Shown here: piece by piece, positions 16,633 to 30,932 of the stretch
Layout of the letters: each line of letters begins with the position of its first letter
Numbering within the stretch: the stretch's first letter is position 1
Assembly: GCF_016919385.1 (NCBI RefSeq)
Contig: NZ_CP070351.1
Coordinates: 372,001-436,000, forward strand
Reading direction: 5' to 3'
Length of the DNA stretch: 64,000 nt
DNA from: Gordonia sp. PDNC005
GTDB lineage: Bacteria > Actinomycetota > Actinomycetes > Mycobacteriales > Mycobacteriaceae
The notes under the pieces: generated by a model
What the model saw: only the letters and a program-made list of their open reading frames with translations
The model's database searches: none
Told to the model about the DNA's origin: nothing
Made by a program: the position numbers and the translations under genes

Positions 16633-16643
16633 CCGCACAGCAC

Positions 16644-16686
16644 GAGGCCGGGCCGGGGATCTCTCCCCGGCCCGGCCTCATTCTTT
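16644..16686 (+). terminator. Rho-independent terminator of tRNA-Lys
   Basis: A 16-bp perfect GC-rich stem (16644-16659 with 16664-16679), a TCTC loop and the tail ATTCTTT. Confidence 0.9.
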
Positions 16687-16823
16687 GACTGTCTTCCGTC
16701 GTGGGCGCTGCGGCGTGGGTTGCACGGTCCGCTGCGGTTCCCATCGAGGCTTGCTGACCTGCTGGAAGTCTGTCGACGCAGTGATTTATGCCATTCGCCC
16801 ACGGCGTCGTCGACAATCTCCTA

Positions 16824-16849
16824 CATTTGCAAATGTTCCATATGGAACA
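16824..16849. promoter_or_regulatory. Two abutting palindromes, operator candidate for the amidase operon
   Basis: CATTTGCAAATG (16824-16835) and TGTTCCATATGGAACA (16834-16849) are both perfect palindromes and overlap by 2 bp. They lie 65 nt upstream of the 60-aa gene start, where a -10/-35 would be expected. TTCCA-N2-TGGAA is compatible with an IclR- or TetR-type dimer site; no such regulator is next to it. The AT-rich composition stands out from the surroundings. Confidence 0.65.
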
Positions 16850-16913
16850 AATTCAGATGATCGTAATGAGCCTGGTGCGGCCCGCCGACCGGCCCGGATC
16901 GAATGGAGAACAG

Positions 16914-17096
16914 ATGACGCTGTCCATCAAGGACGCTCTGGCTGCCAGGGGTGTCGCCCCGACGGTTGACGAGCTGAAGAAGATCGAAAGCAAGTGGTCC
17001 GAAATAGTCGCGCTCAAGGGCGATCTGGACATCATCGCCATCGACGATGCGGACATCTCGCTCCGCAACATCCCTGGAGGCGATCACATTGGCTGA
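16914..17096 (+). CDS. 60-residue GatC/AtzG-like partner of the amidase (putative)
   Basis: Starts at ATG behind AATGGAGAAC and ends by overlapping the amidase start. The sequence is TLSIKDALAARGVAPTVDEL, a charged helix containing KKIESKWSEIVALKGDL, then a short tail ending GDHIG. Some amidase-signature enzymes (GatA, AtzE) work with tiny partner subunits (GatC, AtzG) encoded just upstream. Size, helical character and coupling fit that pattern, but sequence similarity is not evident by eye, so this is an inference from context. A longer reading from upstream ATGs would cross the operator palindromes and is disfavoured. Confidence 0.6.
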   Translation: MTLSIKDALAARGVAPTVDELKKIESKWSEIVALKGDLDIIAIDDADISLRNIPGGDHIG

Positions 17097-18501
17097 TGAC
17101 CTGCTCAAGAAGTCCGCCACCGAGATCGGTGACTTGATCCGCACCAAGGAGATCTCACCCGTCGACGTGACGCGACGCCTTCTCGACCATGCCCACGGGC
17201 TCAACGAGACGGTGAACGCCTACGTCAGCTTTCGGGACGACGAGGCGATGGCCGAGGCGAAGAAGGCGGAGACGGAGATCGTCTCGGGTGACTATCGCGG
17301 ACCGCTGCATGGCGTTCCGATGGGTCTCAAGGACAACCTGTATGTCGCTGGCGAAGTCACGACGATGGCGTCGAAGATCCACGGCGATTTTGTGTCCAAT
17401 GACGATGCCACCGTCGTCAGCAAGCTTCGGGACGCGGGCATCGTGCTCACCGGCAAACTCAACATGCATGAGTACGCATGGGGGATCGACAACAACAGTC
17501 CGCATTTCGGGCCGGTCCACAATCCATGGAACCTCGACAAGGTTCCGGGTGGGTCGAGCGGCGGCTCAGGCGCGGCGGTCGCCTCTGACATGTCGTTCAC
17601 GACCCTCGGCACCGATACCGCGGGTTCGATCCGCATCCCGTCGTCGGCGTGCGGACTCGTCGGTCTCAAGCCGACGCACGGCCGGGTCGCAAAGTTCGGC
17701 TGTTACCCGCTCGCCTGGTCACTGGACCACATCGGTCCGATGGCGAAGACTGTCGAGGACGCGGCAGTTGTACTCCAGGCCATCGCGGGCTTCGACCGTC
17801 GTGACCCGACGTCGGTCGACGTCCCGGTCGGTGACTACCGTGCTGCGCTGGGTGGCGACCCCAAGGGGCTCGTCATCGGTGTGGAGGAGGACTACTACTT
17901 CCGTGGCGTCGACTCCAGCGTGGAGCGTGTGGTCCGTGCCCGGATCGACGACCTCGTCAGCCGTGGAGCGACGGTGAAGAAGGTCTCGATCCCAGCGCTG
18001 AAGTACTCGGAGTGGACCGAGCTCGCCACCAGTCTGTCGGAGGCGTCCGCGATCCATCACCGAGACCTCGAGGCTCGGCCGGAGGACTTCGGCGCGGACA
18101 TCAGGTTCTTGTTCTACCTGGGAGAACTCTTCTCGTCAGTCGACTACCTCCAAGCGCAACAGGTTCGGCGGCAGATCAAACGAGAGTTCTCAGCCGCTCT
18201 CACTGACGTGGACGTCCTCATCGCGCCGACGCTGCCGGTCATGGCCCCGGACATCGGCTCGGCCGTTGCCGATCTGAACGGCGACCCAGTGGATCTCGTC
18301 GACAGTTTCATCCGATTCACCGGACCGAGCAACTTGACCGGTTTGCCTGCGATGACAGTTCCCGGTGGCTTGAACGACGGGCTGCCCGTGGGTGTTCAAA
18401 TCGTTGGCAAGGCGTTCGACGAGGCGACCGTCCTGCGGGTGGGTCGCTTCATCGAGGAGTCGGATCCGATGCAAGGACAACGCGCGCCGATCGGCGCCTG
18501 A
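17089..18501 (+). CDS. Amidase-signature family hydrolase
   Basis: 470 residues from TTG 17089, chosen because CTGGAGG lies ~10 nt upstream and the next ATG nearby is out of frame. It overlaps the preceding 60-aa gene by 8 nt. The Ser-cisSer-Lys triad is visible: K81 in MGLKDNLYV, S157 in GGSSGGSGAAV and S180 in GTDTAGSIRIP. These enzymes hydrolyse amides or ureides to acid plus ammonia. The neighbouring AmiS/UreI-type channel and AmiC-like sensor suggest a small amide or urea-derived compound as substrate. No membrane segment or signal is present. Confidence 0.9.
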   Translation: MADDLLKKSATEIGDLIRTKEISPVDVTRRLLDHAHGLNETVNAYVSFRDDEAMAEAKKAETEIVSGDYRGPLHGVPMGLKDNLYVAGEVTTMASKIHGDFVSNDDATVVSKLRDAGIVLTGKLNMHEYAWGIDNNSPHFGPVHNPWNLDKVPGGSSGGSGAAVASDMSFTTLGTDTAGSIRIPSSACGLVGLKPTHGRVAKFGCYPLAWSLDHIGPMAKTVEDAAVVLQAIAGFDRRDPTSVDVPVGDYRAALGGDPKGLVIGVEEDYYFRGVDSSVERVVRARIDDLVSRGATVKKVSIPALKYSEWTELATSLSEASAIHHRDLEARPEDFGADIRFLFYLGELFSSVDYLQAQQVRRQIKREFSAALTDVDVLIAPTLPVMAPDIGSAVADLNGDPVDLVDSFIRFTGPSNLTGLPAMTVPGGLNDGLPVGVQIVGKAFDEATVLRVGRFIEESDPMQGQRAPIGA

Positions 18502-18516
18502 TCGACCGATGGTGAT

Positions 18517-18561
18517 CTGGCCCGCGAACGAGGAGCCGCTCACGCCTCGCTCGCGGGCCAG
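18517..18561 (+). terminator. Intercistronic hairpin between amidase and AmiS/UreI genes
   Basis: An 11-bp perfect outer stem (18517-18527 with 18551-18561) with an inner CGAGG/CCTCG pairing. There is no T-tail, so it may act as a processing site or attenuator rather than a full terminator. In Pseudomonas amidase operons AmiR works by antitermination at a leader hairpin; whether this hairpin has such a role is a guess. Confidence 0.45.
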
Positions 18562-18645
18562 TCGTCGTCACCCTGGAGAGTCGCCGGTCGATCTGGCGAC
18601 AGTCGCACTCCGCCCACCTCCCAGCCCGAACCGAAGGGTCCATCG

Positions 18646-19248
18646 ATGTCCAGTCTCGCACTTGTCTTCGTCGGCGCAGTTCTGCTCGCCAACGGCCTCG
18701 TCTTCCTTGGACGCATGTCCCCACGCGCCGCGATTCCAGTGAACCTCCTGGTGGGGGCGTTGATCGTCACCACGGCGCTGCTCGGAGCCGTGCCTGCAGC
18801 ACTCGACGAGCGCGCGATGCTGTTCGGGGCACTCGGCTTCAGTGTCTTCGGTTTCACCTACCTGATCGTCGCGTTGAACTCTTTGCTCGACGCCGACGGT
18901 TCCGGTGTCGGGTGGTTCTGCGGATGGGCGGCGATCGTTTCGTGCGTGCTCGCCATGGTGAGTTTCGGTGACGGCGACCCGCGGCTGGCGTGGCTGTGGG
19001 TCTCGTGGGTTGTGCTGTTCACGGCATTCTTCCTCGCCGCGACCGTCGACGACGCCCGATTCGGTCGGGCCGCCGGTGTCGTCGCGGTGATTCAGTCGGT
19101 CACCACGGGCACGATTCCCGGCCTGTTGATGGTCGGTGGCACGTGGGAAGATCTGTCCGTGACCGTCATTGCAGCTGTGCAGATCCTCGGAGTGGTCGGG
19201 TATCTCGCCACGCTCGCACGACCAGCGCGCGTCGTCCAGCACGCGTGA
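18646..19248 (+). CDS. AmiS/UreI-family amide or urea channel
   Basis: 200 residues with six hydrophobic helices and short loops, the size and layout of AmiS/UreI. Family features include VGAVLLANGLVFLGRMSP at the N-terminus and FGFTYLIVALNSLLDADGSG in the middle. Characterised members pass urea or short amides, gated by pH in Helicobacter UreI. Position behind an amidase is the common arrangement in amidase operons. The next gene starts within its stop codon (GTGA). Confidence 0.87.
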   Translation: MSSLALVFVGAVLLANGLVFLGRMSPRAAIPVNLLVGALIVTTALLGAVPAALDERAMLFGALGFSVFGFTYLIVALNSLLDADGSGVGWFCGWAAIVSCVLAMVSFGDGDPRLAWLWVSWVVLFTAFFLAATVDDARFGRAAGVVAVIQSVTTGTIPGLLMVGGTWEDLSVTVIAAVQILGVVGYLATLARPARVVQHA

Positions 19249-20414
19249 CCGCCGCATCGGGTCGGTGGTGGCTTGTCGGGGCGTCGGTTGTCGCCGGAGG
19301 CGTGCTGGTCGCAGTGTCGCCCGACGAAGCGCGCAGTCTTCTCGAGCGACTCACGCCTGTGCTCGTGTTCGTCGCCGCGATGTCGATCGTGGTCAACACC
19401 GCGGCCGACGCCGGCGCATTCGACGCGATCGCGGCGGGCCTGCGACGCATCGCATTGCCGAGGCTGTCCGCGCCCGCGGCGACCTGGGTGCGAGTAGTTG
19501 TCCTCGCGCTGGTCAGCACAGTCTTCCTGTCCCTTGACACGACGGCAATCATGGTGACTCCACTGGCGGTCGCCCTGGCTCGACGGGCTGGAGTTGGAAT
19601 CGCCGCCATTGGTCTCGCCGTGGTGTGGATCGCCAATATCGCGTCGCTGCTGCTCCCGGTATCGAATCTCACCAACCTGTTGGCGGTGTCGGGGGAGGAG
19701 TTCGTCGGCACCGGCGACTACTTGTCGGTGATGTGGCGCCCCGCACTGGTCGCGACGGCGACCGCCGTGCTGGCATCGTGGATCGTCTACCGTTCGTCGG
19801 CGCGAAAGCCGGACGCAGCCGAGGTGGAGCATGACAACGTCGCGGTCGGCGATCGAGACCCGCGGCTCCGCACCAGCCTCGTCGTGTTGGGGTGCATGCT
19901 CCCTCTGTTGGTGTCTCCGATTCCGTACTGGTTGACGGCGAGCGTCGGCGCGCTCGTGTTGGTGGTCGTATCGCTGCGGGACGGGGTGCCAAGGGTGTCG
20001 CACTCGTCCATTCCCTGGCATTCATTGTTCTTTGTCGTCGCGCTCTCCTCGGCAGCAGCCGTACTCCATTCTCTCGGTGCGACGGACTGGTTGGCCCGAA
20101 TGCTCAGCGGAAGCGATGAGTCGACCGGTGGTCTGCTGTTTGTCGGCGGTGTGGGTGCCCTGCTGTCGAATCTCATCAACAACATCCCGGCGTTCCTCGC
20201 CCTCGAAGCCGCCGTGGACGGGCATGCCGGGACCGCAGCGCTCCTCATCGGCGTCAACGTCGGTCCGATCATTGCGCCCTGGGCATCACTCGCGACCCTG
20301 CTCTGGCACGACCAACTGCGTCGTAGCGGCGTCGACGTCCCGTGGCGCCGTTACATCCTCGCCGGCTGCATCTTGATGCCCTTCGCGGTGATCGCGCCGA
20401 TCTTCGCGATCTAG
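19245..20414 (+). CDS. ArsB/SLC13-like ion transporter of the amidase cluster
   Basis: 389 residues from GTG 19245, overlapping the AmiS/UreI stop by 4 nt. About eleven hydrophobic helices. The half-repeat motifs are typical of the ion-transporter superfamily: FLSLDTTAIMVTPLAVALA in the first half and LLSNLINNIPAFLALEA in the second. Such proteins include arsenite pumps and Na+/dicarboxylate or Na+/H+ carriers. No arsenic gene is nearby, so export or import of the acid product, or of ammonium-coupled ions, is more plausible than arsenite transport. Substrate is not decidable from sequence. The strict overlap says it belongs to the amide module. Confidence 0.75.
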   Translation: MTAASGRWWLVGASVVAGGVLVAVSPDEARSLLERLTPVLVFVAAMSIVVNTAADAGAFDAIAAGLRRIALPRLSAPAATWVRVVVLALVSTVFLSLDTTAIMVTPLAVALARRAGVGIAAIGLAVVWIANIASLLLPVSNLTNLLAVSGEEFVGTGDYLSVMWRPALVATATAVLASWIVYRSSARKPDAAEVEHDNVAVGDRDPRLRTSLVVLGCMLPLLVSPIPYWLTASVGALVLVVVSLRDGVPRVSHSSIPWHSLFFVVALSSAAAVLHSLGATDWLARMLSGSDESTGGLLFVGGVGALLSNLINNIPAFLALEAAVDGHAGTAALLIGVNVGPIIAPWASLATLLWHDQLRRSGVDVPWRRYILAGCILMPFAVIAPIFAI

Positions 20415-20419
20415 CGTCG

Positions 20420-21487
20420 CTACAGCGTCTGGATCACTTCGAAATCGAAGGCGTCGGCGCGGGCCAGATTCACCGATTGCACGGCCTGGTTGCCGTGGTA
20501 CCGGACGATGCCGCGCGGCCCTTCGAGCACCAGACCGTCGATGACGTCGTCGAAGGCGGCCACGGTGAGGGAGTCAGCGCGCTGCGAGAGCCGAACCAAT
20601 GTCTGAATTCCCTGGTAACACGACTGCGCCATATTGTTCAGAGCCGGTGCGGCCGGTCCTCCGGCTGACACGTAGCGGCTCAAGAAATCCAATGCGTCGG
20701 CACTGGTCAGACTGTTGAAATATGAGGCCGAGCAGTACAGGTTCTCGGTCGCTTCGGCACCACTGGCCAACAACATGTTCTCATCCATCAGGGGGCTGTA
20801 CCGAGTGATTCGGCGATGCAGCCCGGCGTCGGCGAATGAACGGTTGAACGCCACCGCGTCCTGGCCGACGAGCAGCATCAGGACACCGTCGCACCCGCTC
20901 ACGGCCACGTCGAGTGGCAAGAGCGGGTCTGCGCCCGACCCCATGTCAACAAAGGTGCTGCCGACGATTTCGACGTCCATCGTCGATGCCGACTGGATCG
21001 TCTTCTCCATCGACCGGACCGGCCAGACGTACCGCGCGCCGACCACATGCCACCGTCGGATCCCGAGGTTTCGGCGCAGCCACTGCATGGCCGGGAACAC
21101 CTGCTGTTCCGGGGTCTCGCCGCTGCAGTAGACGCCCGGCGCGTGCTCGCCGCCCTCGAACAGCGACGTGTAGACGTACGGGACGCGTCCACTGACGATC
21201 GGCGCGAGAAGGCGTCGGATCGATGAGATGTGCCACCCGGTCACGGCGTCGATCAGATCGTCCTCGATGAGGCGTGCTACCTCCTCGGCGACGCGCTGCG
21301 GGCTCTGTCCGCCGTCGATGTACACCAGTTCGGCTTGCCGGCCGGCTACGCCGTCATCCCGGTTGATCTCGTCCTTCGCCATTTCGCACACGGAGATGCA
21401 CGACGGACCGAAGATGCCGCCGGGCCCCTGCAGCGGGATCACAACTCCTATCCGAAACGACTGAGCGGCAGGTTGCACCCGCGGCAT
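20420..21487 (-). CDS. Cytosolic AmiC-like amide/urea sensor (ABC-type binding-protein fold)
   Basis: 355 residues. ATG 21487 is preceded by GGAGGAGG at a good distance; an upstream extension is less likely. The sequence is a periplasmic-binding-protein type I fold: RIGVVIPLQGPGGIFGPSC at the start, DEINRDDGVAGRQAELVYID, and the hinge region near VTGWHISSIRR. It resembles FmdD/AmiC short-chain amide or urea receptors. There is no signal peptide, which separates it from transport receptors and fits a regulator such as Pseudomonas AmiC. No AmiR or ANTAR protein is in the window, so the partner may be the divergent MarR protein or be elsewhere. Its 3' end is 5 bp from the convergent permease. 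Confidence 0.8.
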   Translation of the reverse strand: MPRVQPAAQSFRIGVVIPLQGPGGIFGPSCISVCEMAKDEINRDDGVAGRQAELVYIDGGQSPQRVAEEVARLIEDDLIDAVTGWHISSIRRLLAPIVSGRVPYVYTSLFEGGEHAPGVYCSGETPEQQVFPAMQWLRRNLGIRRWHVVGARYVWPVRSMEKTIQSASTMDVEIVGSTFVDMGSGADPLLPLDVAVSGCDGVLMLLVGQDAVAFNRSFADAGLHRRITRYSPLMDENMLLASGAEATENLYCSASYFNSLTSADALDFLSRYVSAGGPAAPALNNMAQSCYQGIQTLVRLSQRADSLTVAAFDDVIDGLVLEGPRGIVRYHGNQAVQSVNLARADAFDFEVIQTL

Positions 21488-21624
21488 CGGGCCTCCTCCG
21501 CGACGACGGACCTCACAGCCCGCGCGTACTTTGGGGTGTTTCACAGCGACTGCACTAATCTGTAGGGTAACTGCCTGCAAGACGTCGGATCAACGAATCT
21601 CCGGCCGGGAGTACGAGGTGCCAG

Positions 21625-22080
21625 ATGAGCGACGCAGCAGGACCTGCGGTGGCCGCCACCGGCTTGGAGTCGTCCACGGATCTCGTGAAGAATCTGCTGT
21701 TGGGAGCACACGCGACCGCGGCGAGCCTGGCCGCGATCGGTACCAATCGCGAACTCACCGTCGACGAATGGCTCATCCTCGACGCGCTCGGCAACGCGGA
21801 CGGACTGTCGATGTCGACGCTTTCTCGGCGCACACTCGCCTCCGGGGCGTCGTTGACTCGTGCGGTCGACAAGCTCGTCACCGCGTCGCTGGTCTACCGA
21901 GCCCCCAGTGCAACCGACCGCCGCAAAGTCGAAGTGCGAATCAGTGAACTCGGGAGGGAGCGTCACGCCGAGATGAGCGATGAGGTGCGCGCACTCGACT
22001 CGACACTGAGGTCACTGATGGGCGCCGACGCCGACATCGTTGCCGACGTGCTCGGGCGAATCGGCGTCAATCTCGGGTGA
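21625..22080 (+). CDS. MarR-family transcriptional regulator
   Basis: 151 residues with the winged-helix layout of MarR: helices around LTVDEWLILDALGNADGLSM, recognition helix SGASLTRAVDKLVTASLVYR and wing DRRKVEVRISELGRE. It is divergent to the AmiC-like gene, with a 137-bp shared region, so it probably controls itself and that gene. A small aromatic or amide-derived ligand would be usual for the family. Confidence 0.88.
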   Translation: MSDAAGPAVAATGLESSTDLVKNLLLGAHATAASLAAIGTNRELTVDEWLILDALGNADGLSMSTLSRRTLASGASLTRAVDKLVTASLVYRAPSATDRRKVEVRISELGRERHAEMSDEVRALDSTLRSLMGADADIVADVLGRIGVNLG

Positions 22081-22171
22081 GCGCTGCTGAAACGACCGCT
22101 GGCCTGCGGATTTGTGTTTCTCTGAGCGCGTGCCATAAAGTAATCCTCGCTCCCAGCGGGAACAAGCACCG

Positions 22172-22519: not shown

Positions 22520-22521
22520 CA

Positions 22522-22553
22522 AGAAGAACCACCCGGTAACGGGTGGTTCTTCT
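22522..22553 (+). terminator. Terminator of the tRNA-Asp/Phe transcript
   Basis: A 14-bp perfect stem (22522-22535 with 22540-22553), GTAA loop, right arm ending GGTTCTTCT. Confidence 0.88.
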
Positions 22554-22585
22554 CGTATCTCGGGTGCTATTCATGCAGTTGCGGG

Positions 22586-23017
22586 TCAGCCGCGCAGGGT
22601 GATCCCGAACGGGTTGTCGATCACGTATCGCCAATAGCCGTCGGCACCTCTCCGAGCCACGTCGGTAGCCGTGCCGCGGAGGTCGATCGACTGTCCGGAC
22701 TGTGAGCGCCCGACGATCGCCCAGTCGACGATGAGCAACGCAGTGTCGCCGGACTGGATGACATTTCGGGGATTGACGGATATCGGAATTCCCAGGGAGA
22801 GATGTTCGGTGAGGGCGGCCTGGCGGTCTGCACCGACGGCGAGTCTTCCCTCGTCGGTGACCAGCACCGCGGACTCTTCGTAGACGCTCTCGACGATGGC
22901 AGGGTTTCCTGACTCGATAGAGGCCGCGAAGGCACGGGCGAATGCGGCTGGGTGGTCGTCGGGAGTGATGGCCAACTCGGGGGTGGCCGACGGTGGCAGA
23001 CTATTCGTATCCATCAA
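22586..23017 (-). CDS. NTF2-like (SnoaL/DUF4440-type) protein
   Basis: 143 residues. A cone-shaped NTF2-like fold is suggested by the N-terminal helix pair HPAAFARAFAASIESGNPAI, then beta-rich segments (SAVLVTDEGRLAVGAD, TALLIVDWAIVGRS) and the ending YWRYVIDNPFG. Such proteins act as small-molecule binders or as unspecialised hydrolases/isomerases. It is divergent from the HxlR gene with only 21 bp between starts, so HxlR may control it. Confidence 0.75.
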   Translation of the reverse strand: MMDTNSLPPSATPELAITPDDHPAAFARAFAASIESGNPAIVESVYEESAVLVTDEGRLAVGADRQAALTEHLSLGIPISVNPRNVIQSGDTALLIVDWAIVGRSQSGQSIDLRGTATDVARRGADGYWRYVIDNPFGITLRG

Positions 23018-23038
23018 CTGAGCGAATCAGGGAGCGCT

Positions 23039-23491
23039 GTGGCTCACCAAACGGTAAGGGCGGTTGAGTGGGACCCGGAGCTGGTCCCCACCGCGGACGG
23101 ACGCACAGTTCGCCCCAGTGGGCAATGCCCGGTTGAAGTGGCGCTGGCCGCTATCGGTGGACGATGGACGACCCTGATCCTGCGTGACCTTGCAGTCGCA
23201 GACGGCCCCGTGTCGTACTCGGCGTTGGCTGACGGGCTTCCGGAGTTGAGCGACAAGGTCCTCGCTGAGCGGCTCGCAAGACTCACCACGGACGGCTACG
23301 TGAACCGGGAGGCGACCGGCGGCTATCCGACACGTGTCCACTACCGAATCAGCGCTCGTGGGAGGTTGCTGAGACCACTGCTGATCGAGCTCTACCGAAC
23401 CGGGACGGTGTTGAAGGAGACTGATCGACCTGTCTCACACGGCTTTGAGGGTGCCTCCGTCGGCGATGAAGTCGGCGCCGGTGAGGTTTGA
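23039..23491 (+). CDS. HxlR-family transcriptional regulator
   Basis: 150 residues from GTG 23039 with GGGAG upstream; an earlier ATG would overlap the divergent gene. The HxlR signature is clear: CPVEVALAAIGGRWTTLILR with the redox-capable N-terminal cysteine, then LSDKVLAERLARLTTDGYVNR as recognition helix and wing. The 3' end overlaps the convergent SDR gene by 57 bp. Targets are likely the divergent NTF2-like gene or itself. Confidence 0.88.
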   Translation: MAHQTVRAVEWDPELVPTADGRTVRPSGQCPVEVALAAIGGRWTTLILRDLAVADGPVSYSALADGLPELSDKVLAERLARLTTDGYVNREATGGYPTRVHYRISARGRLLRPLLIELYRTGTVLKETDRPVSHGFEGASVGDEVGAGEV

Positions 23492-24202
23492 CGCGCGCGG
23501 TGATGCCAAGAAGGCGATGAGGGCGGCGGTCTCCTCCGGCTCGCTCAACCGTCCCGAAGCGATCGACATCGCCTCGGGCACGGCTCGGACGAACTCGTCC
23601 AGAGACACTCCGGCTTGGTCTGCGAGGTGCCCGGCGTAGCCGCTCGGGTCGCCCCAATTCGCGGTCCGCGTCGGTCCGGGGGTGACGGTGACGGATCTGA
23701 GTCCCTTATCGCCGAACTCCTCCGACAGCGCCTTGCTCATGTTCGTCAGTGCGGCCTTGGCTGCGCCGTAGTCGACCGGCTGGTACGCGGCACGGGCGCC
23801 GATCGACGAGACGTTGACGACCACACCGCGGCGCGACAGCAGCGACGGCAGAAACGCCTGGGTGACTCGCACTGTGGCGAAAAGATTCAACTCAAACGTC
23901 TCGCGCCAGGCGGCGACGTCGAGCGCGAGAAATCCCCCCGCATCCATACTTCGGGGTAGTACCGCGCCTAGGTTGTTGACCAGGATGTCGACCGGACCGA
24001 TCATTTCGGCGAGGTCGGCGGCCGCCGTCTCGTCGGTGAGATCTCGGGGCAGGAAAGAGACTCCAGCAATCGGAGCAGGCAGGGTCCGCGCGATGCCGTG
24101 CACCGTGGCGCCCTCGCGGGCGAGCAGCCGGGCAGTCTCAAGTCCGATGCCCTTGCTGGCACCGGTCACCACCGCAGTTTTGCCGGTCAGTTCGAGATCC
24201 AT
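23435..24202 (-). CDS. Short-chain dehydrogenase/reductase (classical SDR)
   Basis: 255 residues. The cofactor loop TGASKGIG is at 13-20, the structural motif is NNLGA (76-80, usually NNAG), the catalytic Ser is near 132-133 and Y145-GAA-K149. Arg in the beta2 region (GIART) suggests NADP(H) preference. Substrate unknown. It follows the TetR gene on the same strand after 30 bp, so it is probably in a repressor-controlled operon with it. Confidence 0.9.
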   Translation of the reverse strand: MDLELTGKTAVVTGASKGIGLETARLLAREGATVHGIARTLPAPIAGVSFLPRDLTDETAAADLAEMIGPVDILVNNLGAVLPRSMDAGGFLALDVAAWRETFELNLFATVRVTQAFLPSLLSRRGVVVNVSSIGARAAYQPVDYGAAKAALTNMSKALSEEFGDKGLRSVTVTPGPTRTANWGDPSGYAGHLADQAGVSLDEFVRAVPEAMSIASGRLSEPEETAALIAFLASPRASNLTGADFIADGGTLKAV

Positions 24203-24232
24203 GGTCGCTCCTAGGTGATTGCTGTGCTGTGG

Positions 24233-24811
24233 TCAGAGTCCGAGCAACGCTGCGTCGGCCAGGGCGGCGAGTCGCGTCGGCGACGGGTCGACACGTGCGA
24301 GCACCCGGATCCCGTTGACTGTCGCGACGAGGAGGTTGCCCATCGATGTGCTGTCGACAGCGGGGTTGATCTCTCCGGTGACTTGTCCGTGCGCGATAGC
24401 TCGGCTGAACGCCGCGACCTGGTCGTCGACCACCTGGGCTAGTAGCGTGCGCACCTGTTCGTCGTCCCGTGCGCGTTCGATCGCCGCATTCGTCACCATG
24501 CAGCCTCGCCGTTCGGCATCGAGCAGCGACAGGTCAACGACGCGTTCGATCGCCGCGCGAAGCTTGGGCAGCACGTCGCCAGGCTGATCAAGGAGCTCGA
24601 TGACCTGTGAAGACTCGTCGCGGATGTATCGTTCCAGGGCCCTGAGATACAGGTCTGACTTGCTGCCGAAAGTGTTGTAGAGGCTACTGCGTGCGATCCC
24701 CATGCCCGCTTCGAGTGCCGCGGGCGTGGCGTCGGCGTATCCGCGTGACCAGAAGACGTCCACAGCGGCGTCCGTTGCAGCGTCCGGGTCGAACTTCTTG
24801 GGGCGTCCCAT
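24233..24811 (-). CDS. TetR-family transcriptional regulator
   Basis: 192 residues from ATG 24811. The start MGRPKKFDPDAATDAAVDVF and the HTH GMGIARSSLYNTFGSKSDLY (about 35-54) are typical of TetR; the C-terminal half is helical ligand-binding. An upstream in-frame ATG lies within the operator palindrome and is not used here. It precedes the SDR gene and is divergent from the repeat-protein gene. Confidence 0.93.
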   Translation of the reverse strand: MGRPKKFDPDAATDAAVDVFWSRGYADATPAALEAGMGIARSSLYNTFGSKSDLYLRALERYIRDESSQVIELLDQPGDVLPKLRAAIERVVDLSLLDAERRGCMVTNAAIERARDDEQVRTLLAQVVDDQVAAFSRAIAHGQVTGEINPAVDSTSMGNLLVATVNGIRVLARVDPSPTRLAALADAALLGL

Positions 24812-24823
24812 GTGGCTCAGGAT

Positions 24824-24855
24824 AACAGTTATGTACCTCAAGGTACATAACTGTT
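24824..24855. promoter_or_regulatory. 32-bp perfect palindrome, operator of the TetR-SDR unit
   Basis: 15-bp arms (AACAGTTATGTACCT and its complement) flank a CA centre. The site ends 12 nt before the TetR ATG and 171 nt before the repeat-protein start, so it may be shared. It is AT-rich in a GC-rich background. Autoregulation by the adjacent TetR protein is the obvious reading. Confidence 0.85.
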
Positions 24856-25026
24856 GGGAGATTCTGAGTAGTAAGGCCGGTTTCTGCGTAGCGTGAACCG
24901 ACGCTCGTGGAGCCCGTAAACCGTTCGCTCAATGTTGTTTTGGACTCAAAGCCGCATGCCGCGGTGAACATCGAGTCAGGCTGTGGAAGTGTGGACACAG
25001 TCGAATACCCGTGTCGAGGAGAGATG

Positions 25027-27720
25027 ATGACCGAAGGCGCCGACCAGGACCCCACAAATCCTGAGTTGACCATCGTCGACAACGTCGTCGACCGCGAATA
25101 CACGGTCGAGCGGCTCGTCGAGAACCCCGTCGAAACAGTGATCGACAAGCCGATCACCCTCGAGCGCATCGTCGAACGCCTGGTGATCGACACCGTCGAC
25201 ACCGTCATCGACAAGCCTGCCACCGTCTCCCGCCTCGTCGAGAAGCCGGTCGTCACCGTCGTCGACGAAGTGACCGACAAGCCAGTGACGCTCAAGCGGA
25301 TCGTCGAACGTCCCATCGTCACGGTCGAAGACGAACTGACCGACAAGCCGGTGAACGTCCAGCGACTTGTCGAGCAGCCCGTTGTGACGATCGTCGATGA
25401 CGTCGTCGACAAGCCCGTCGACGTCGCACGACTCGTTGAACACCCGATTGTCACCGTCGTCGACAACGTGGTGGAGAAGCCCGTCGACGTGCCGCGCGTC
25501 ATCGAGCAGCCGGCCGTCACCATCACGGACGAGATCGTCGACAAACCTGTTGAACTCCCGCGCCTTGTCGAGAAGCCGATCGTCACCGTGTACGACGAGA
25601 TCGTCGACAAGCCCGTCGAAGTGGCGCGACTGGTGGAGAAGCCGATTGTCACAGTCGTCGACGAGATCGTCGACACCCCGGTCGAGCTGACGCGCATCGT
25701 CGAGAAGCCCGTCATCACGGTGGTGGACGAGATCGAAGACGTCGCTGTGGAACTGCCGCGTCTCATCGAACGTCCCATCGTCACCGTCGTCGACGAGATC
25801 AAAGAGACCGAAGTCGAGATCTCGCGTCTCGTCGAGAAGCCGATCGTCACCGTCCTCGACCAGATCGCCGACAAGCCCGTTGAGATCCAGCGGCTCGTGG
25901 AACGCCTCATCGTCACTGTCGTCGACGAAGTGATCGAGCGGCCAGCCGAGGTCCAGCGCGTGATCGAGAAGTTGATCGTCGACATCACCGACACAGTCGT
26001 CGAGAAGCCGATCACCGTCGAGCGCATGGTCGAGAAGCCCATCGTCACGCTCGTCGACAAGATCGTCGAAGTACCGGTCGAGTCGATCGTCGAAAAGGTC
26101 ATCGAGAAGCCTGTCGAGAAGATCATCGAGATCACCGTCGAGAAGCCGGTCGAGAAGATCGTCGAACACATCATCGAAGTCCCCGTCGAGAAGAACGTGT
26201 ACACGACGGTCGAGAAAGAGATCGAGGTCCCCGTCGAAGAGGTGATCTACAAGACGGTCGAGAAGCCCGTTGAGAAGATCATCGAGGTGGTCGTCGAACG
26301 ACCCGTCATCAAGGTCGTCGAAGTGCCCCGCGAGGTGGTCGTCGAACGACTCGTCGACAAGCCGATCGAGAAGACCGTCGATCACGTCATCGAACGCATC
26401 GTCGAGAAGCCGAACGTGGTGGAGAAGGTGATCGAGAAGCCCGTCGAGAGGATCGTCGAGCGCATCGTCGAGAAGCCCGACATCGTGGAGAAGGTGATCG
26501 AGAAGCCCGTTGAGCACGTCCTCGAGCGAGTCGTCGAGAAGCCAGAGGTGATCGAGGAGATCATCGAGACCACCGTCGAGCGAGTCGTCGAGCGTGTTGT
26601 CGAGATGCCCAACGTGGTCGAGAAGGTCGTCGAGAAACCCGTCGACCGTGAGGTCGAGCGTGTCGTCGAGGTTCCGAACGTGGTGGAGAAGGTCGTCGAA
26701 AAGCCTGTCGACCATGTGGTCGAGCGGATCGTCGAGAAGCCGAACGTCATCGAGAAGGTCGTCGAAAAGCCCGTCGACCACGTCGTCGAGCGTGTCGTCG
26801 AGGTTCCGAACGTGGTGGAGAAGGTCGTCGAAAAGCCTGTCGACCATGTGGTCGAGCGGATCGTCGAGAAGCCGAACGTCATCGAGAAGGTCGTCGAGAA
26901 ACCCGTCGACCACACGGTCGAGAAGATCGTCGAAGTCCCCAACATCGTCGAACAGATCGTCTCTCGACCCGTCGACCACGTCATCGAGAAGATCCTCGAA
27001 GTCCCCGAGATAACCGAGGAAGTAGTAGAGCGTCCCGTCGAGAGGACCGTCGAGAAGGTCGTCGAGAAGCCCAACGTCATCGAAAAGATCGTCGAGAAGT
27101 CGGTCGATCACGTCGTCGAGCGCATCGTCGAGAAGCCCAACGTTGTGGAACAGATCGTCGACAAGCCGGTCGAGCACATCGTCGAGAAGATCGTCGAGCG
27201 GCCTGAGATCGTCGAGAAGGTGATCGACACCCCGGTGCACCGCGAGTTCGAGAAGCACGTGCAGACGCCGGTGCTCGTCGAGAAGGTCATCGAGAAACAG
27301 GTCAACGTCGTCTCCGAGCGGATCATCGAGAAGCCTGTCGAACACGTTGTGGAGAGGGTCGTCGAGAGGCCCGTCTATCGCGAGGTGGAGCGGATCATCG
27401 AGAAGCCGATCGAGAAGATCGTCGAGGTGGTCGTCGAGAAGCCTGTCATCGTCCGCAGGATGGTCGAGAAGGAGGTCGAGCGAGTCGTCGAGGACGACAC
27501 GTCGACCCGGACCGTCACTCACGACGCGTACGCGGGCGAGCCCGTGCAGCCGCACTTCCTGGACAAGGCGCCGTCGAACGGTGACCGCTGGGTCGAAGCG
27601 GGCACCGGCAAACACCCGGATGACGGGACCGCCGGCTCGCAGTCGGAAGAGGCGATCGCTCGCGATCGTGTGGAACCGCAATACCAAGCCCGCCGCGCCA
27701 AGCACCGCTCGGCTGACTAG
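25027..27720 (+). CDS. Giant 22-residue VEKP-repeat protein, function unknown
   Basis: 897 residues; ATG 25027 (or 25024) follows CGAGGAG, while upstream sequence lacks the repeats. Residues 1-39 are an acidic lead-in. Residues 40-347 are 14 exact-length 22-residue units of the form DKPVEVARLVEKPIVT plus VVDEIV. Residues 348-822 continue with Glu-rich units whose core reads VEKPVDHVVERIVEKPNV, mostly also 22 long. Residues 823-897 are a non-repetitive hydrophilic tail. There is no signal, membrane helix or sortase motif, and almost no Cys or aromatics. Alternating Val/Ile with charged residues and a Pro every ~11 suggests a long beta or coiled fibre. The pattern recalls EKIVEVP-type repeats of eukaryotic alveolins. 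Role is unknown; a cytoskeletal or scaffold role is inference. Confidence 0.88.
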   Translation: MTEGADQDPTNPELTIVDNVVDREYTVERLVENPVETVIDKPITLERIVERLVIDTVDTVIDKPATVSRLVEKPVVTVVDEVTDKPVTLKRIVERPIVTVEDELTDKPVNVQRLVEQPVVTIVDDVVDKPVDVARLVEHPIVTVVDNVVEKPVDVPRVIEQPAVTITDEIVDKPVELPRLVEKPIVTVYDEIVDKPVEVARLVEKPIVTVVDEIVDTPVELTRIVEKPVITVVDEIEDVAVELPRLIERPIVTVVDEIKETEVEISRLVEKPIVTVLDQIADKPVEIQRLVERLIVTVVDEVIERPAEVQRVIEKLIVDITDTVVEKPITVERMVEKPIVTLVDKIVEVPVESIVEKVIEKPVEKIIEITVEKPVEKIVEHIIEVPVEKNVYTTVEKEIEVPVEEVIYKTVEKPVEKIIEVVVERPVIKVVEVPREVVVERLVDKPIEKTVDHVIERIVEKPNVVEKVIEKPVERIVERIVEKPDIVEKVIEKPVEHVLERVVEKPEVIEEIIETTVERVVERVVEMPNVVEKVVEKPVDREVERVVEVPNVVEKVVEKPVDHVVERIVEKPNVIEKVVEKPVDHVVERVVEVPNVVEKVVEKPVDHVVERIVEKPNVIEKVVEKPVDHTVEKIVEVPNIVEQIVSRPVDHVIEKILEVPEITEEVVERPVERTVEKVVEKPNVIEKIVEKSVDHVVERIVEKPNVVEQIVDKPVEHIVEKIVERPEIVEKVIDTPVHREFEKHVQTPVLVEKVIEKQVNVVSERIIEKPVEHVVERVVERPVYREVERIIEKPIEKIVEVVVEKPVIVRRMVEKEVERVVEDDTSTRTVTHDAYAGEPVQPHFLDKAPSNGDRWVEAGTGKHPDDGTAGSQSEEAIARDRVEPQYQARRAKHRSAD
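26653..26897 (+). repeat. Near-tandem perfect 113-bp duplication inside the repeat gene
   Basis: 26653-26765 and 26785-26897 are identical base for base, offset by 132 bp (two 66-bp units). The rest of the gene has repeats that are conserved in protein but varied in codons. This identity therefore marks a recent duplication or gene conversion event. Confidence 0.9.
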
Positions 27721-27730
27721 CGCTACAGGT

Positions 27731-27780
27731 ACCTCACAGCCCGTCCGATGCCTCAGGGAGGCACGCACGGCCTGTGAGGT
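27731..27780. terminator. Hairpin terminator after the repeat gene
   Basis: Outer 14-bp arms (27731-27744 and 27767-27780, one mismatch) and an inner GCCTC-AGG-GAGGC stem. It lies between the convergent repeat-protein and Nudix genes and may serve both. Confidence 0.7.
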
Positions 27781-29109: not shown

Positions 29110-29213
29110 CCTCAACGCATGATGCGCGGCGAGTGATCGCGCACACCCTGTCACCTCCCAGGTATTCGGTACTCTCTCCAGAGATCGAGACAACCTGGGA
29201 GGTGATGCGTTTC

Positions 29214-30932
29214 ATGACAAAACGTCAGCGAGAGAAGGCGCATCGCATCGCCGACCGGATGGATCGCCGTTTCAAGACGATGGTCATGCTCGGCGGGCTG
29301 AACGCCCAGGGGCGCGACCGTGACGAGGTGGAGATCCTCGAGCTCGACCCGCAGACCCGCAAACGGTTCGCTACTCGTGGACTGCTCATCGGCGGCATGA
29401 TCGTCGCCGGCGCCAAGGTGCTCATCGGCATCGAGACGTTCGTCGCGGTGCTGCTCGCCTTCAACGGCGGACGTTTTGAGATCCACACCGACGCCGACAT
29501 GGGCGCCGTCCTGGCCGCCTTGCTCGTCGGCACCGTCGCCAGCGTCCTCGCATCGATCTTCTTCCTTCTCCCGCAGTACCGCTGGTTCGTCACTGCGGAG
29601 CCCGCCGACGCACGTCGCAGACGGGACGTGGTCCGCATACCTGCGAGTCTGGTCGTCGCCGACCTCCTCGGGTGGATGACGGCGTTCGGCGTGTACGTCA
29701 CGATCTCGGACATGCGGCTGGTGTTCGTGCTTGCAGTGGGCGGCGCGTTCGGCCTCGCCGCGATCACCTCGTGCTCCCTCACGTACCTCTTCGCCGAGAG
29801 CGCCGCCCGCCCGCTCGCCATTCTTGCGATGCGCGGGTCCACGTCGACCCGCGTCGTCCACGGCGTCCGCGAGCGGATGATCGTCGTGTGGGTCGTCTCG
29901 TCGGCAGTGCCGATGGTCGGCCTGCTGCTGGTGAACCTCGGCCGTGGACTCGGCTGGGTCCCGCCCGTCGCGGGCACCGTCGACTGGACGGTCATCCTGC
30001 TGGCGATCATCGCGCTGACATCCGGCGCGCGCGTGGTCGGCCTGGTGAATCGCGCTATCGCCGACCCGTTGAACGACATGCGCGAAGTGGTCGAGGCCGC
30101 GCGCAACGGCGACATCTCGCAACGCGTCGCCGTCTACGACGCCTCCGAGCTCGGCGTGCTCCAGGCGGGCTTCAACTCGATGCTCGACGGTCTGGCCGAA
30201 CGGGAAAGGATGCGCGACATCTTCTCGCGGCACGTCGGAGACCACGTCGCTCAGCTGGCACTCGAGCAGGACGGCGAACTCGTCGGATCCAACACCGACG
30301 TCGCCGTCATCTTCGTCGACATCACCGGATCCACCGCATTCGCCGCAGACCGTGATCCGCGTGAGACGGCCGTCGTCCTCAATGCGTTCTTCTCGATCGT
30401 GGCCGACGTCGTCGACCGGCACGGCGGCTTCATCAACAAGTTCGAAGGTGATGCCGCGTTGATCGTCTTCGGCGCGCCCGCGCCCCTGGGCGACCCGGCG
30501 CTGGCTGCGTTGACCGCGGCCCGTGAACTCGGCGCGGAGCTCAGTGAGCGTCTGCCTCTCGAATGGGGGATGGGCGTGGCCTACGGCCGCGTGTTCGCGG
30601 GCAACATCGGCGCACGGACGCGCTACGAATACACGGTGATCGGGGATTCGGTAAACGAGTCGGCCCGCCTCTCCGACCTGGCGAAAGAGGGCTATTCGTC
30701 AGTCTATGCGAGCCGTGCCGCGATCGAGGCGGCCGCTGAGGATGAGGCTGCGCGGTGGAAGCGGGTCGACCGTCAAGTGCTGCGCGGACGTGCTCACGTG
30801 ACAGAGATCTTCGCACCGTCCGAGCTGCTCGTTCGCCACGAGCCGCCGTCTCTCGGTAGTGTTCTCGCCGATCTGGTCAAGTTCGCCATGCCCGGCGAGC
30901 GAGCGTCGAGGGTCACGACCAAGGAGGCTTGA
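29214..30932 (+). CDS. Membrane adenylate cyclase (class III, Rv1318c/Rv3645-like)
   Basis: 572 residues; the ATG at 29214 sits 11 nt after GGAGG. Six hydrophobic helices (~57-83, 97-119, 145-163, 168-192, 222-243, 258-275), HAMP (~277-330) and a C-terminal cyclase domain (360-545). Metal-binding D369 (FVDITGS) and D413 (KFEGD), base-recognition K409 with T474 in YTVIGDSVN, and transition-state N481 and R485 are present, so it should make cAMP. Lys/Thr instead of Lys/Asp marks class IIIb, as in bicarbonate-responsive cyclases. The downstream SDR begins 2 nt after its stop, suggesting an operon. The CRP-type site at rpfA (43270) is a possible downstream target. Confidence 0.92.
   Translation: MTKRQREKAHRIADRMDRRFKTMVMLGGLNAQGRDRDEVEILELDPQTRKRFATRGLLIGGMIVAGAKVLIGIETFVAVLLAFNGGRFEIHTDADMGAVLAALLVGTVASVLASIFFLLPQYRWFVTAEPADARRRRDVVRIPASLVVADLLGWMTAFGVYVTISDMRLVFVLAVGGAFGLAAITSCSLTYLFAESAARPLAILAMRGSTSTRVVHGVRERMIVVWVVSSAVPMVGLLLVNLGRGLGWVPPVAGTVDWTVILLAIIALTSGARVVGLVNRAIADPLNDMREVVEAARNGDISQRVAVYDASELGVLQAGFNSMLDGLAERERMRDIFSRHVGDHVAQLALEQDGELVGSNTDVAVIFVDITGSTAFAADRDPRETAVVLNAFFSIVADVVDRHGGFINKFEGDAALIVFGAPAPLGDPALAALTAARELGAELSERLPLEWGMGVAYGRVFAGNIGARTRYEYTVIGDSVNESARLSDLAKEGYSSVYASRAAIEAAAEDEAARWKRVDRQVLRGRAHVTEIFAPSELLVRHEPPSLGSVLADLVKFAMPGERASRVTTKEA

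Follow-up and report, generated by a model that had tools for sequence, protein, structure and literature searches.

Positions 25027–27720 on the forward strand of a 64,000-nucleotide stretch of Gordonia sp. PDNC005 (contig NZ_CP070351.1, positions 372,001–436,000; hereafter the window) encode a repeat protein of bacteria that is lineage-restricted and conserved and, as judged from its sequence, is made up like the membrane-skeleton proteins of protists, such as those of malaria parasites and some algae. It has a regular repeat anatomy, is under purifying selection, is of constant length in the nearest group, is epiplastin-like in composition and, in some relatives, is encoded next to an LGFP-repeat membrane protein. 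We infer that a scaffold role is the best reading: the product would be a cytoplasmic structural protein whose beta-rich body assembles into ribbons or a mesh under the membrane, tethered in some lineages by the LGFP-repeat protein. This account is offered tentatively, as a possible rather than a probable one.

The gene translates to 897 residues with one terminal stop, and their construction from 22-residue Val/Glu/Lys-Pro repeats, first proposed in a reading of the letters alone (the sequence-only reading), was borne out by translation and by analysis of self-identity at fixed lags, with z scores from 300 shuffles. Zone borders were set by composition, giving a head (residues 1–17), a body of 798 residues (18–815) and a tail (816–897). 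The 14 consecutive units of exactly 22 residues that had been counted at residues 40–347 were all recovered, and a degenerate 15th unit begins at residue 18. These 15 units make up an Asp-rich zone (residues 18–347; 25078–26067, forward strand, as are all zones), which was defined by self-identity (0.58 at lag 22, z = 27.7) and unit-by-unit comparison. A middle zone with 4/12-residue spacing follows (residues 348–460; 26068–26406; best self-identity lags 16, 40, 36, 12 and 20), distinguished by self-identity, by alignment identity and by the nonsynonymous substitution rate (dN) of residues 348–475. The Glu-rich zone (residues 461–815; 26407–27471) consists of 14 units of 22 (461–768) and then mostly 12-spaced prolines; because lag-22 self-identity is high in residues 461–770 (0.62, z = 21.7), this half, too, is largely a 22-residue array. 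The Glu-richness of the ~475-residue second part had been recognized in the sequence-only reading, but its 22-residue period and the separate middle zone had been overlooked. The shift from Asp-rich to Glu-rich sequence was confirmed, with D 9.4% and E 12.7% in residues 18–347 versus D 2.6% and E 21.4% in residues 348–815. Proline spacing mostly alternates between 10 and 12 and is 12 in much of the middle zone. The head is indeed short, at 17 residues, but the tail (27472–27717), delimited by composition and alignment, has 82 residues rather than the 75 first given. By alignment, the N-terminal stretch of the body (residues 18–79; 25078–25263; VDNVVDR..TVERLVE..) is recognizable in Gordonia, in a metagenome-assembled genome (MAG) and in Nocardia.

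Comparison with related species showed the repeat gene to be real and under purifying selection. The protein is 96, 88, 78 and 80% identical to its counterparts in G. malaquae, G. spumicola, G. zhenghanii and G. liuliyuniae, respectively; the ratios of nonsynonymous to synonymous substitution rates (dN/dS) are 0.07, 0.13, 0.27 and 0.21, and 157 of 197, 248 of 366, 289 of 509 and 299 of 500 changes fall in third positions. The notion that the frame is a chance or antisense artefact of repetitive DNA draws on the fact that the opposite strand is likewise open for 930 residues (24976–27768, reverse strand). This open frame is a by-product of the repeat gene's codon make-up and is interrupted by a stop in two of five genomes, whereas the third-position bias of the changes and dN/dS match the sense frame; the artefact reading is thereby refuted and is given practically no weight. 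Codon adaptation of the repeat gene (0.643) is the highest of 14 window genes tested (the others range from 0.406 to 0.595; ribosomal proteins, 0.748) and is 0.59 for the tail alone, which hints at good expression and at no more than that. A genome search found a single copy in the 4.26-Mb genome, two minus-strand rows falling on the same gene. Upstream of the gene, a ribosome-binding-like GAGGAG (25016–25021) and an alternative ATG at 25024 occupy positions 25016–25026 (forward strand), so that two neighboring candidate starts, at 25024 and 25027, lie downstream of GAGGAG.

For assessment of the likeness to protist proteins, the composition of the body was compared with the medial-domain profile of the epiplastins (alveolins, articulins and epiplasmins) given in PMC6212826. 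That profile is V 25, I 9, L 2, E 16, K 9, D 3, R 7, G 0.4, A 1, S 1 and T 3%; residues 18–815 have V 27.7, I 10.5, L 3.0, E 17.8, K 8.8, D 5.4, R 6.0, G 0, A 0.9, S 0.8 and T 5.0%, so that none of the 11 residue classes compared lies more than 1.2 standard deviations from the mean for epiplastins. The Asp-rich zone taken alone departs from the same profile (z = 3.2 for D, 2.7 for T and 2.0 for L). The tail is ordinary in composition (G 7.3, A 12.2, S 6.1 and T 7.3%), with the normal G/A/S/T content of an epiplastin tail, and the head is just the 17 residues mentioned. A V/I/E/K-rich, G/A-poor body with an ordinary tail is thus shared with the epiplastins; in contrast to them, the present protein, known from its sequence, is bacterial, has a body of 798 instead of ~200 residues on average, carries a regular 22-residue repeat, is raised in Asp and Thr in its first half and is constant in length among the seven nearest genomes.

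The pattern had been called alveolin-like in the sequence-only reading, and part of that likeness stood. The Pfam profile of the alveolin domain, IMCp (PF12314; 12-residue repeats, EKIVEVP), scored 29.6 bits with the whole protein and 59.7 bits with residues 461–815 (cut-off 21.1), and did not match one reversed and two shuffled versions of the latter. The EKIVEVP heptad occurs exactly once and in degenerate form 21 times (shuffle mean 0.03), and the 12-residue spacing of prolines is shared in part. However, the main period here is 22 (10 + 12), and spacing of 12, which defines the alveolin repeat, is confined to parts of the protein. IMCp found no match in the Asp-rich zone nor in the Nocardia orthologue, and a whole-genome IMCp search missed the repeat gene, yet gave a signal in the Caulobacter vibrioides control. 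Articulins are recognized by more than three VPV modules; the window protein has three, and no VYV, and some relatives have four or five VPV (nine in locus L047). The articulin-like proteins of Caulobacter (PMC6212826), compared by make-up, are likewise bacterial and similarly composed, but have many VPV and VYV modules.

Descent from the alveolin/articulin family, by gain of the gene from a protist, is suggested by the direction-specific IMCp match in the Glu-rich zone and by the excess of degenerate heptads over shuffled sequence. Against it speak the unmatched Asp-rich zone and Nocardia orthologue, spurious matches of other Pfam models to the same protein, the confinement of all clear relatives found to Mycobacteriales and the presence of VEKPVE stretches in several proteins of other architectures, and we consider it very improbable. 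The last point suggests convergence: the repeat protein is built like an epiplastin, probably by convergent evolution rather than by alveolin descent. A homologue search with the window protein returned 507 proteins at E ≤ 1e-3, with the Gordonia orthologues not among the best 120 of these. Fourteen of the best 120 were read, with reference to their Pfam domains, and proved to be helix-hairpin-helix, OmpA-like and eukaryote-like proteins with VEKPVE stretches; they were set aside as convergent. Three proteins (P0005, P0022 and P0006; helix-hairpin-helix or OmpA-like by reading) carry such stretches; this low-complexity motif seems to have arisen more than once. Another, P0024, is possibly of the epiplastin type and from a protist. 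With the Nocardia repeat protein as the query instead, nothing was returned at E ≤ 1e-20. NCBIfam gave gltX alone, at 8.5 bits and far under its cut-off, and four weak matches in a PDB profile search (best E 0.017) were taken as chance. No description of this family was found in searches of the literature on Gordonia repeat and cytoskeleton proteins and on Nocardia LGFP repeats; within the literature searched, bacterial articulins are described for Caulobacter only.

Homologues in related genomes, for which a search had been proposed with the sequence-only reading, were surveyed along with their lengths. The repeat gene is carried by 16 of 59 Gordonia genomes, including that of the window. Ranked by score to the neighboring adenylate cyclase, the 16 carriers are exactly the top 16 (lowest carrier, 658.6 bits; highest non-carrier, 552.4 bits), which argues, from scores and not from a tree, that they form one group with vertical descent of the gene. 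Of 401 genomes in a sample of the family, 25 matched at E ≤ 1e-3. Fourteen of these are Gordonia and one is a Nocardia (G310); the remaining ten matches are weak (E 5.5e-10 to 9.6e-4), and one of them (G404) is of the same genus as G310. The only weak match inspected, in G313, was by reading an Ala/Lys/Pro protein with hydrophobic helices and was rejected. In an order sample, the four of 397 genomes that matched at E ≤ 1e-8 were all Gordonia. A MAG labelled Mycobacteriaceae carries the gene across two contig ends (L009 and L010), and it and the one Nocardia are the clear relatives found outside Gordonia. Searches of phages and plasmids with the repeat protein gave no match.

In Gordonia carriers the repeat gene occupies a fixed locus. 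Of 15 loci scanned, 14 have tRNA-Glu, tRNA-Asp and tRNA-Phe genes upstream (the exception is the MAG; in L040 they are about 5 kb off). On the downstream side, each of the 14 Gordonia loci that extend far enough has YceI, adenylate cyclase and SDR genes. Seven loci were fetched from the 43 non-carriers: NUDIX, YceI and cyclase genes were present in all seven, the tRNAs in five within the stretch fetched and the repeat gene in none.

Within this group, conservation is uneven along the protein. The middle zone is the most conserved, with 112, 110 and 107 of 113 residues identical to those in loci L004, L005 and L007, respectively; for residues 18–79 the corresponding counts are 61, 60 and 54 of 62. 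The tail evolves fast overall (80, 62 and 47 of 82), and within it T-x-x-H-P is kept in 17 of 17 aligned tails and W-x-x-x-T-G-x-H-P in most, W being F in Nocardia and G being R in the MAG. When units were compared between species, 14, 15, 12 and 14 of 15 Asp-zone units had the orthologous unit as their best match, alone or tied, in G. malaquae, G. spumicola, G. zhenghanii and G. liuliyuniae, respectively; in the more homogeneous Glu-rich zone the counts were 13, 10, 7 and 7 of 14 in the same order. Because Asp-zone units keep their individual identity between species, that array is old and fixed and not a product of recent slippage. The protein has 897 residues in the window genome, in three closely related species and in G016, 898 in G057 and 902 in G. 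zhenghanii.

The sequence-only reading had also raised the possibility of a molecular ruler, that is, a rod, stiff or springy, whose fixed length would set how far apart two partners are, one docked at the N-terminal units and the other at the tail, with no polymerization. A length held at 897–902 in seven genomes at up to 23% divergence is what such a spacer would show, as are the recognizable elements retained family-wide at both ends and the Asp-zone units that are not interchanged. The wider family, however, ranges from about 630 residues (Nocardia) to about 971, so that constancy holds in the nearest group and fails beyond it. Furthermore, conservation peaks in the middle zone and is among the lowest in the tail, which is not what a plain spacer between docking ends would lead one to expect. 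We regard the ruler as unlikely, though worth keeping in mind.

The LGFP-repeat gene mentioned above directly follows the repeat gene in six loci: four Gordonia, the MAG and the Nocardia. In G002, G019 and G048 the stop codon of the repeat gene overlaps the start of the partner (TGATG); in G014, Nocardia aurantia (G310) and MAG contig L010 (start uncertain) a similar gene lies directly downstream. By reading, the partners are single-pass membrane proteins (among them L041, 8365–9801; L046, 8674–9846; L063, 7877–9112; L010, 841–2262). Each begins with a signal peptide and has LGFP repeats and a single transmembrane helix, after which come basic residues; the tail varies, but near its end, on the predicted cytoplasmic side, stands a conserved [VI]-x-Y-x-N-N-A-[VIL]-G. 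LGFP repeats (PF08310) scored 97, 97 and 108 bits in the three of six partners tested (cut-off 22). They are shared with LGFP-repeat envelope proteins of the kind proposed for Corynebacterium PS1, to which the partner adds the transmembrane helix and the cytoplasmic Y-x-N-N-A tail. Since LGFP repeats have been proposed as cell-wall anchors (PMC3314691) and the partner gene adjoins the repeat gene, the partner is a candidate envelope tether. The absence of signal and anchor claimed in the sequence-only reading stands for the repeat protein itself, in which no signal peptide or transmembrane segment was seen by reading, but in these six loci the adjacent gene may supply an anchor.

The partner is set apart by its tail motif. 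Some LGFP match exists in all 59 Gordonia genomes, and the four partner genomes reach at least 265 bits, the next best 69. Among the best 30 Gordonia LGFP loci (29 with a frame), Y-x-N-N-A occurs in four, all from repeat-gene carriers. A DNA pattern for the motif matched six of 25 genomes, five at the partner and one (G037) at an unrelated gene; this last, in an unrelated membrane protein, was the one match among the 12 partnerless carriers scanned. Of 38 relatives of the Nocardia partner, 24 have Y-x-N-N-A, all 24 among the first 28, and all 28 have a helix segment by hydropathy. In many Nocardia relatives D-K-S-D follows the Y-x-N-N-A-x-G tail.

Long repeat proteins are frequently surface proteins, and an adhesive repeat protein, displayed or secreted without a classical signal, was therefore weighed; the envelope protein encoded by the next gene in the six loci fits it. 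However, no signal peptide, anchor or cell-wall motif was seen by reading, and the conserved motif of the partner is predicted, also by reading, to be cytoplasmic, after the transmembrane helix and basic residues. Profile searches in Pfam and NCBIfam matched no known adhesin family. An adhesive role is accordingly judged improbable.

In the proposed scaffold, Pro-punctuated units of Val/Ile and Glu/Lys would give extended segments, rich in beta structure, that associate laterally, and the molecules would form ribbons or a mesh, as is thought for alveolins and other epiplastins, beneath the plasma membrane. Specific contacts would fall to three parts: the conserved units at the N terminus, the middle zone and the short element retained in the tail. 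In Nocardia aurantia, the related MAG and one Gordonia subgroup, the LGFP protein would tie the mesh to the envelope through its Y-x-N-N-A cytoplasmic tail. A more far-reaching version, in which mycolic-acid bacteria independently evolved an epiplastin-like beta-ribbon membrane skeleton tethered through LGFP and Y-x-N-N-A, with the tether lost or replaced in the window's lineage, is rather unlikely.

Several results weigh against the scaffold. Structure prediction by AlphaFold, another of the checks proposed, gave strands and no helix in the body, but at low confidence: the mean predicted local distance difference test score (pLDDT) was 33 for the whole protein (7 sequences) and 45 for the Asp-rich zone (6 sequences), with no confident fold. 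The spacing of hydrophobic residues has peaks at 4.4, 3.65 and 5.5 residues in each of the two arrays, with no clean beta alternation; this fits neither a plain strand nor a coiled coil, the latter being disfavored because a proline occurs every 10–12 residues. Two other Pfam models pass their cut-offs, DUF445 for the whole protein (35.5 versus 33.8) and MIP-T3 for the Glu-rich zone (28.8 versus 23.4); both matches are surely spurious and are a warning about IMCp too. The repeat gene is absent from 43 of 59 Gordonia genomes. No partner was found in the window genome, where the two LGFP matches are weak (at most 31.4 bits) and the tail motif is absent, nor was one seen in 11 other Gordonia carriers, so that the tether is not universal. 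Proteins with LGFP-like sequence and a hydrophobic helix, but a different C terminus, occur in non-carrier loci (L076, L079, L082, L083, L084 and L095); the architecture by itself is therefore not tied to the repeat protein, and confinement of the partner to carriers rests on the tail motif. Finally, at least 12 named Nocardia records hold an LGFP relative, while only one Nocardia in the family sample showed the repeat gene. Given these and the partnerless carriers, each protein may work alone.

The low confidence of the models also bears on a further alternative, a disordered charged spring or condensate-forming polymer, like the PEVK part of titin. The lack of a confident fold and the richness in P, E, V and K agree with it. 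Against it stand the 38% of Val plus Ile, which is hydrophobic for a disordered chain, and a residue order that is conserved unit by unit, beyond composition. Such a spring is, on balance, doubtful. As to beta structure, the longest Pro-free runs within the repeats have 21 residues (one of 32 extends into the tail), and V + I + T amount to 43%. Lone alveolin domains are also unordered in AlphaFold and yield beta-ribbons when modelled as pairs, according to PMC12465100.

According to PMC6212826, prokaryotes, being walled, are not expected to assemble epiplasts, and Caulobacter is the bacterial case treated there. If the scaffold reading is true, walled actinobacteria would have a convergent system, built on a conserved protein that is epiplastin-like and of fixed length and has a candidate tether in relatives. 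It would also be a simple one, with one gene in one copy per genome in the window's strain, and would show whether an epiplastin-like composition suffices for a membrane-supporting mesh.

Some features of the neighborhood were also recorded. The adenylate cyclase-like gene downstream (by reading; 29133–30932, forward strand) is found at this locus in carriers, and the seven loci read from non-carriers have it too. Relative to the G. malaquae locus (L004), the tRNA cluster of the window is accompanied by two additional blocks, at 16635–22171 and 22521–25026. The first, of ~5 kb between tRNA-Lys and tRNA-Glu, holds amidase-like, AmiS-like, substrate-binding and MarR-like genes by reading; the second, of ~2.3 kb between tRNA-Phe and the repeat gene, holds SnoaL-like, HxlR-like and SDR genes by reading and a TetR gene by Pfam. 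L004, in which no gene of either block was found, has the repeat gene close to the tRNAs. The six LGFP-like proteins of non-carrier loci listed above share the C-terminal ending E-[IV]-W-F-A.

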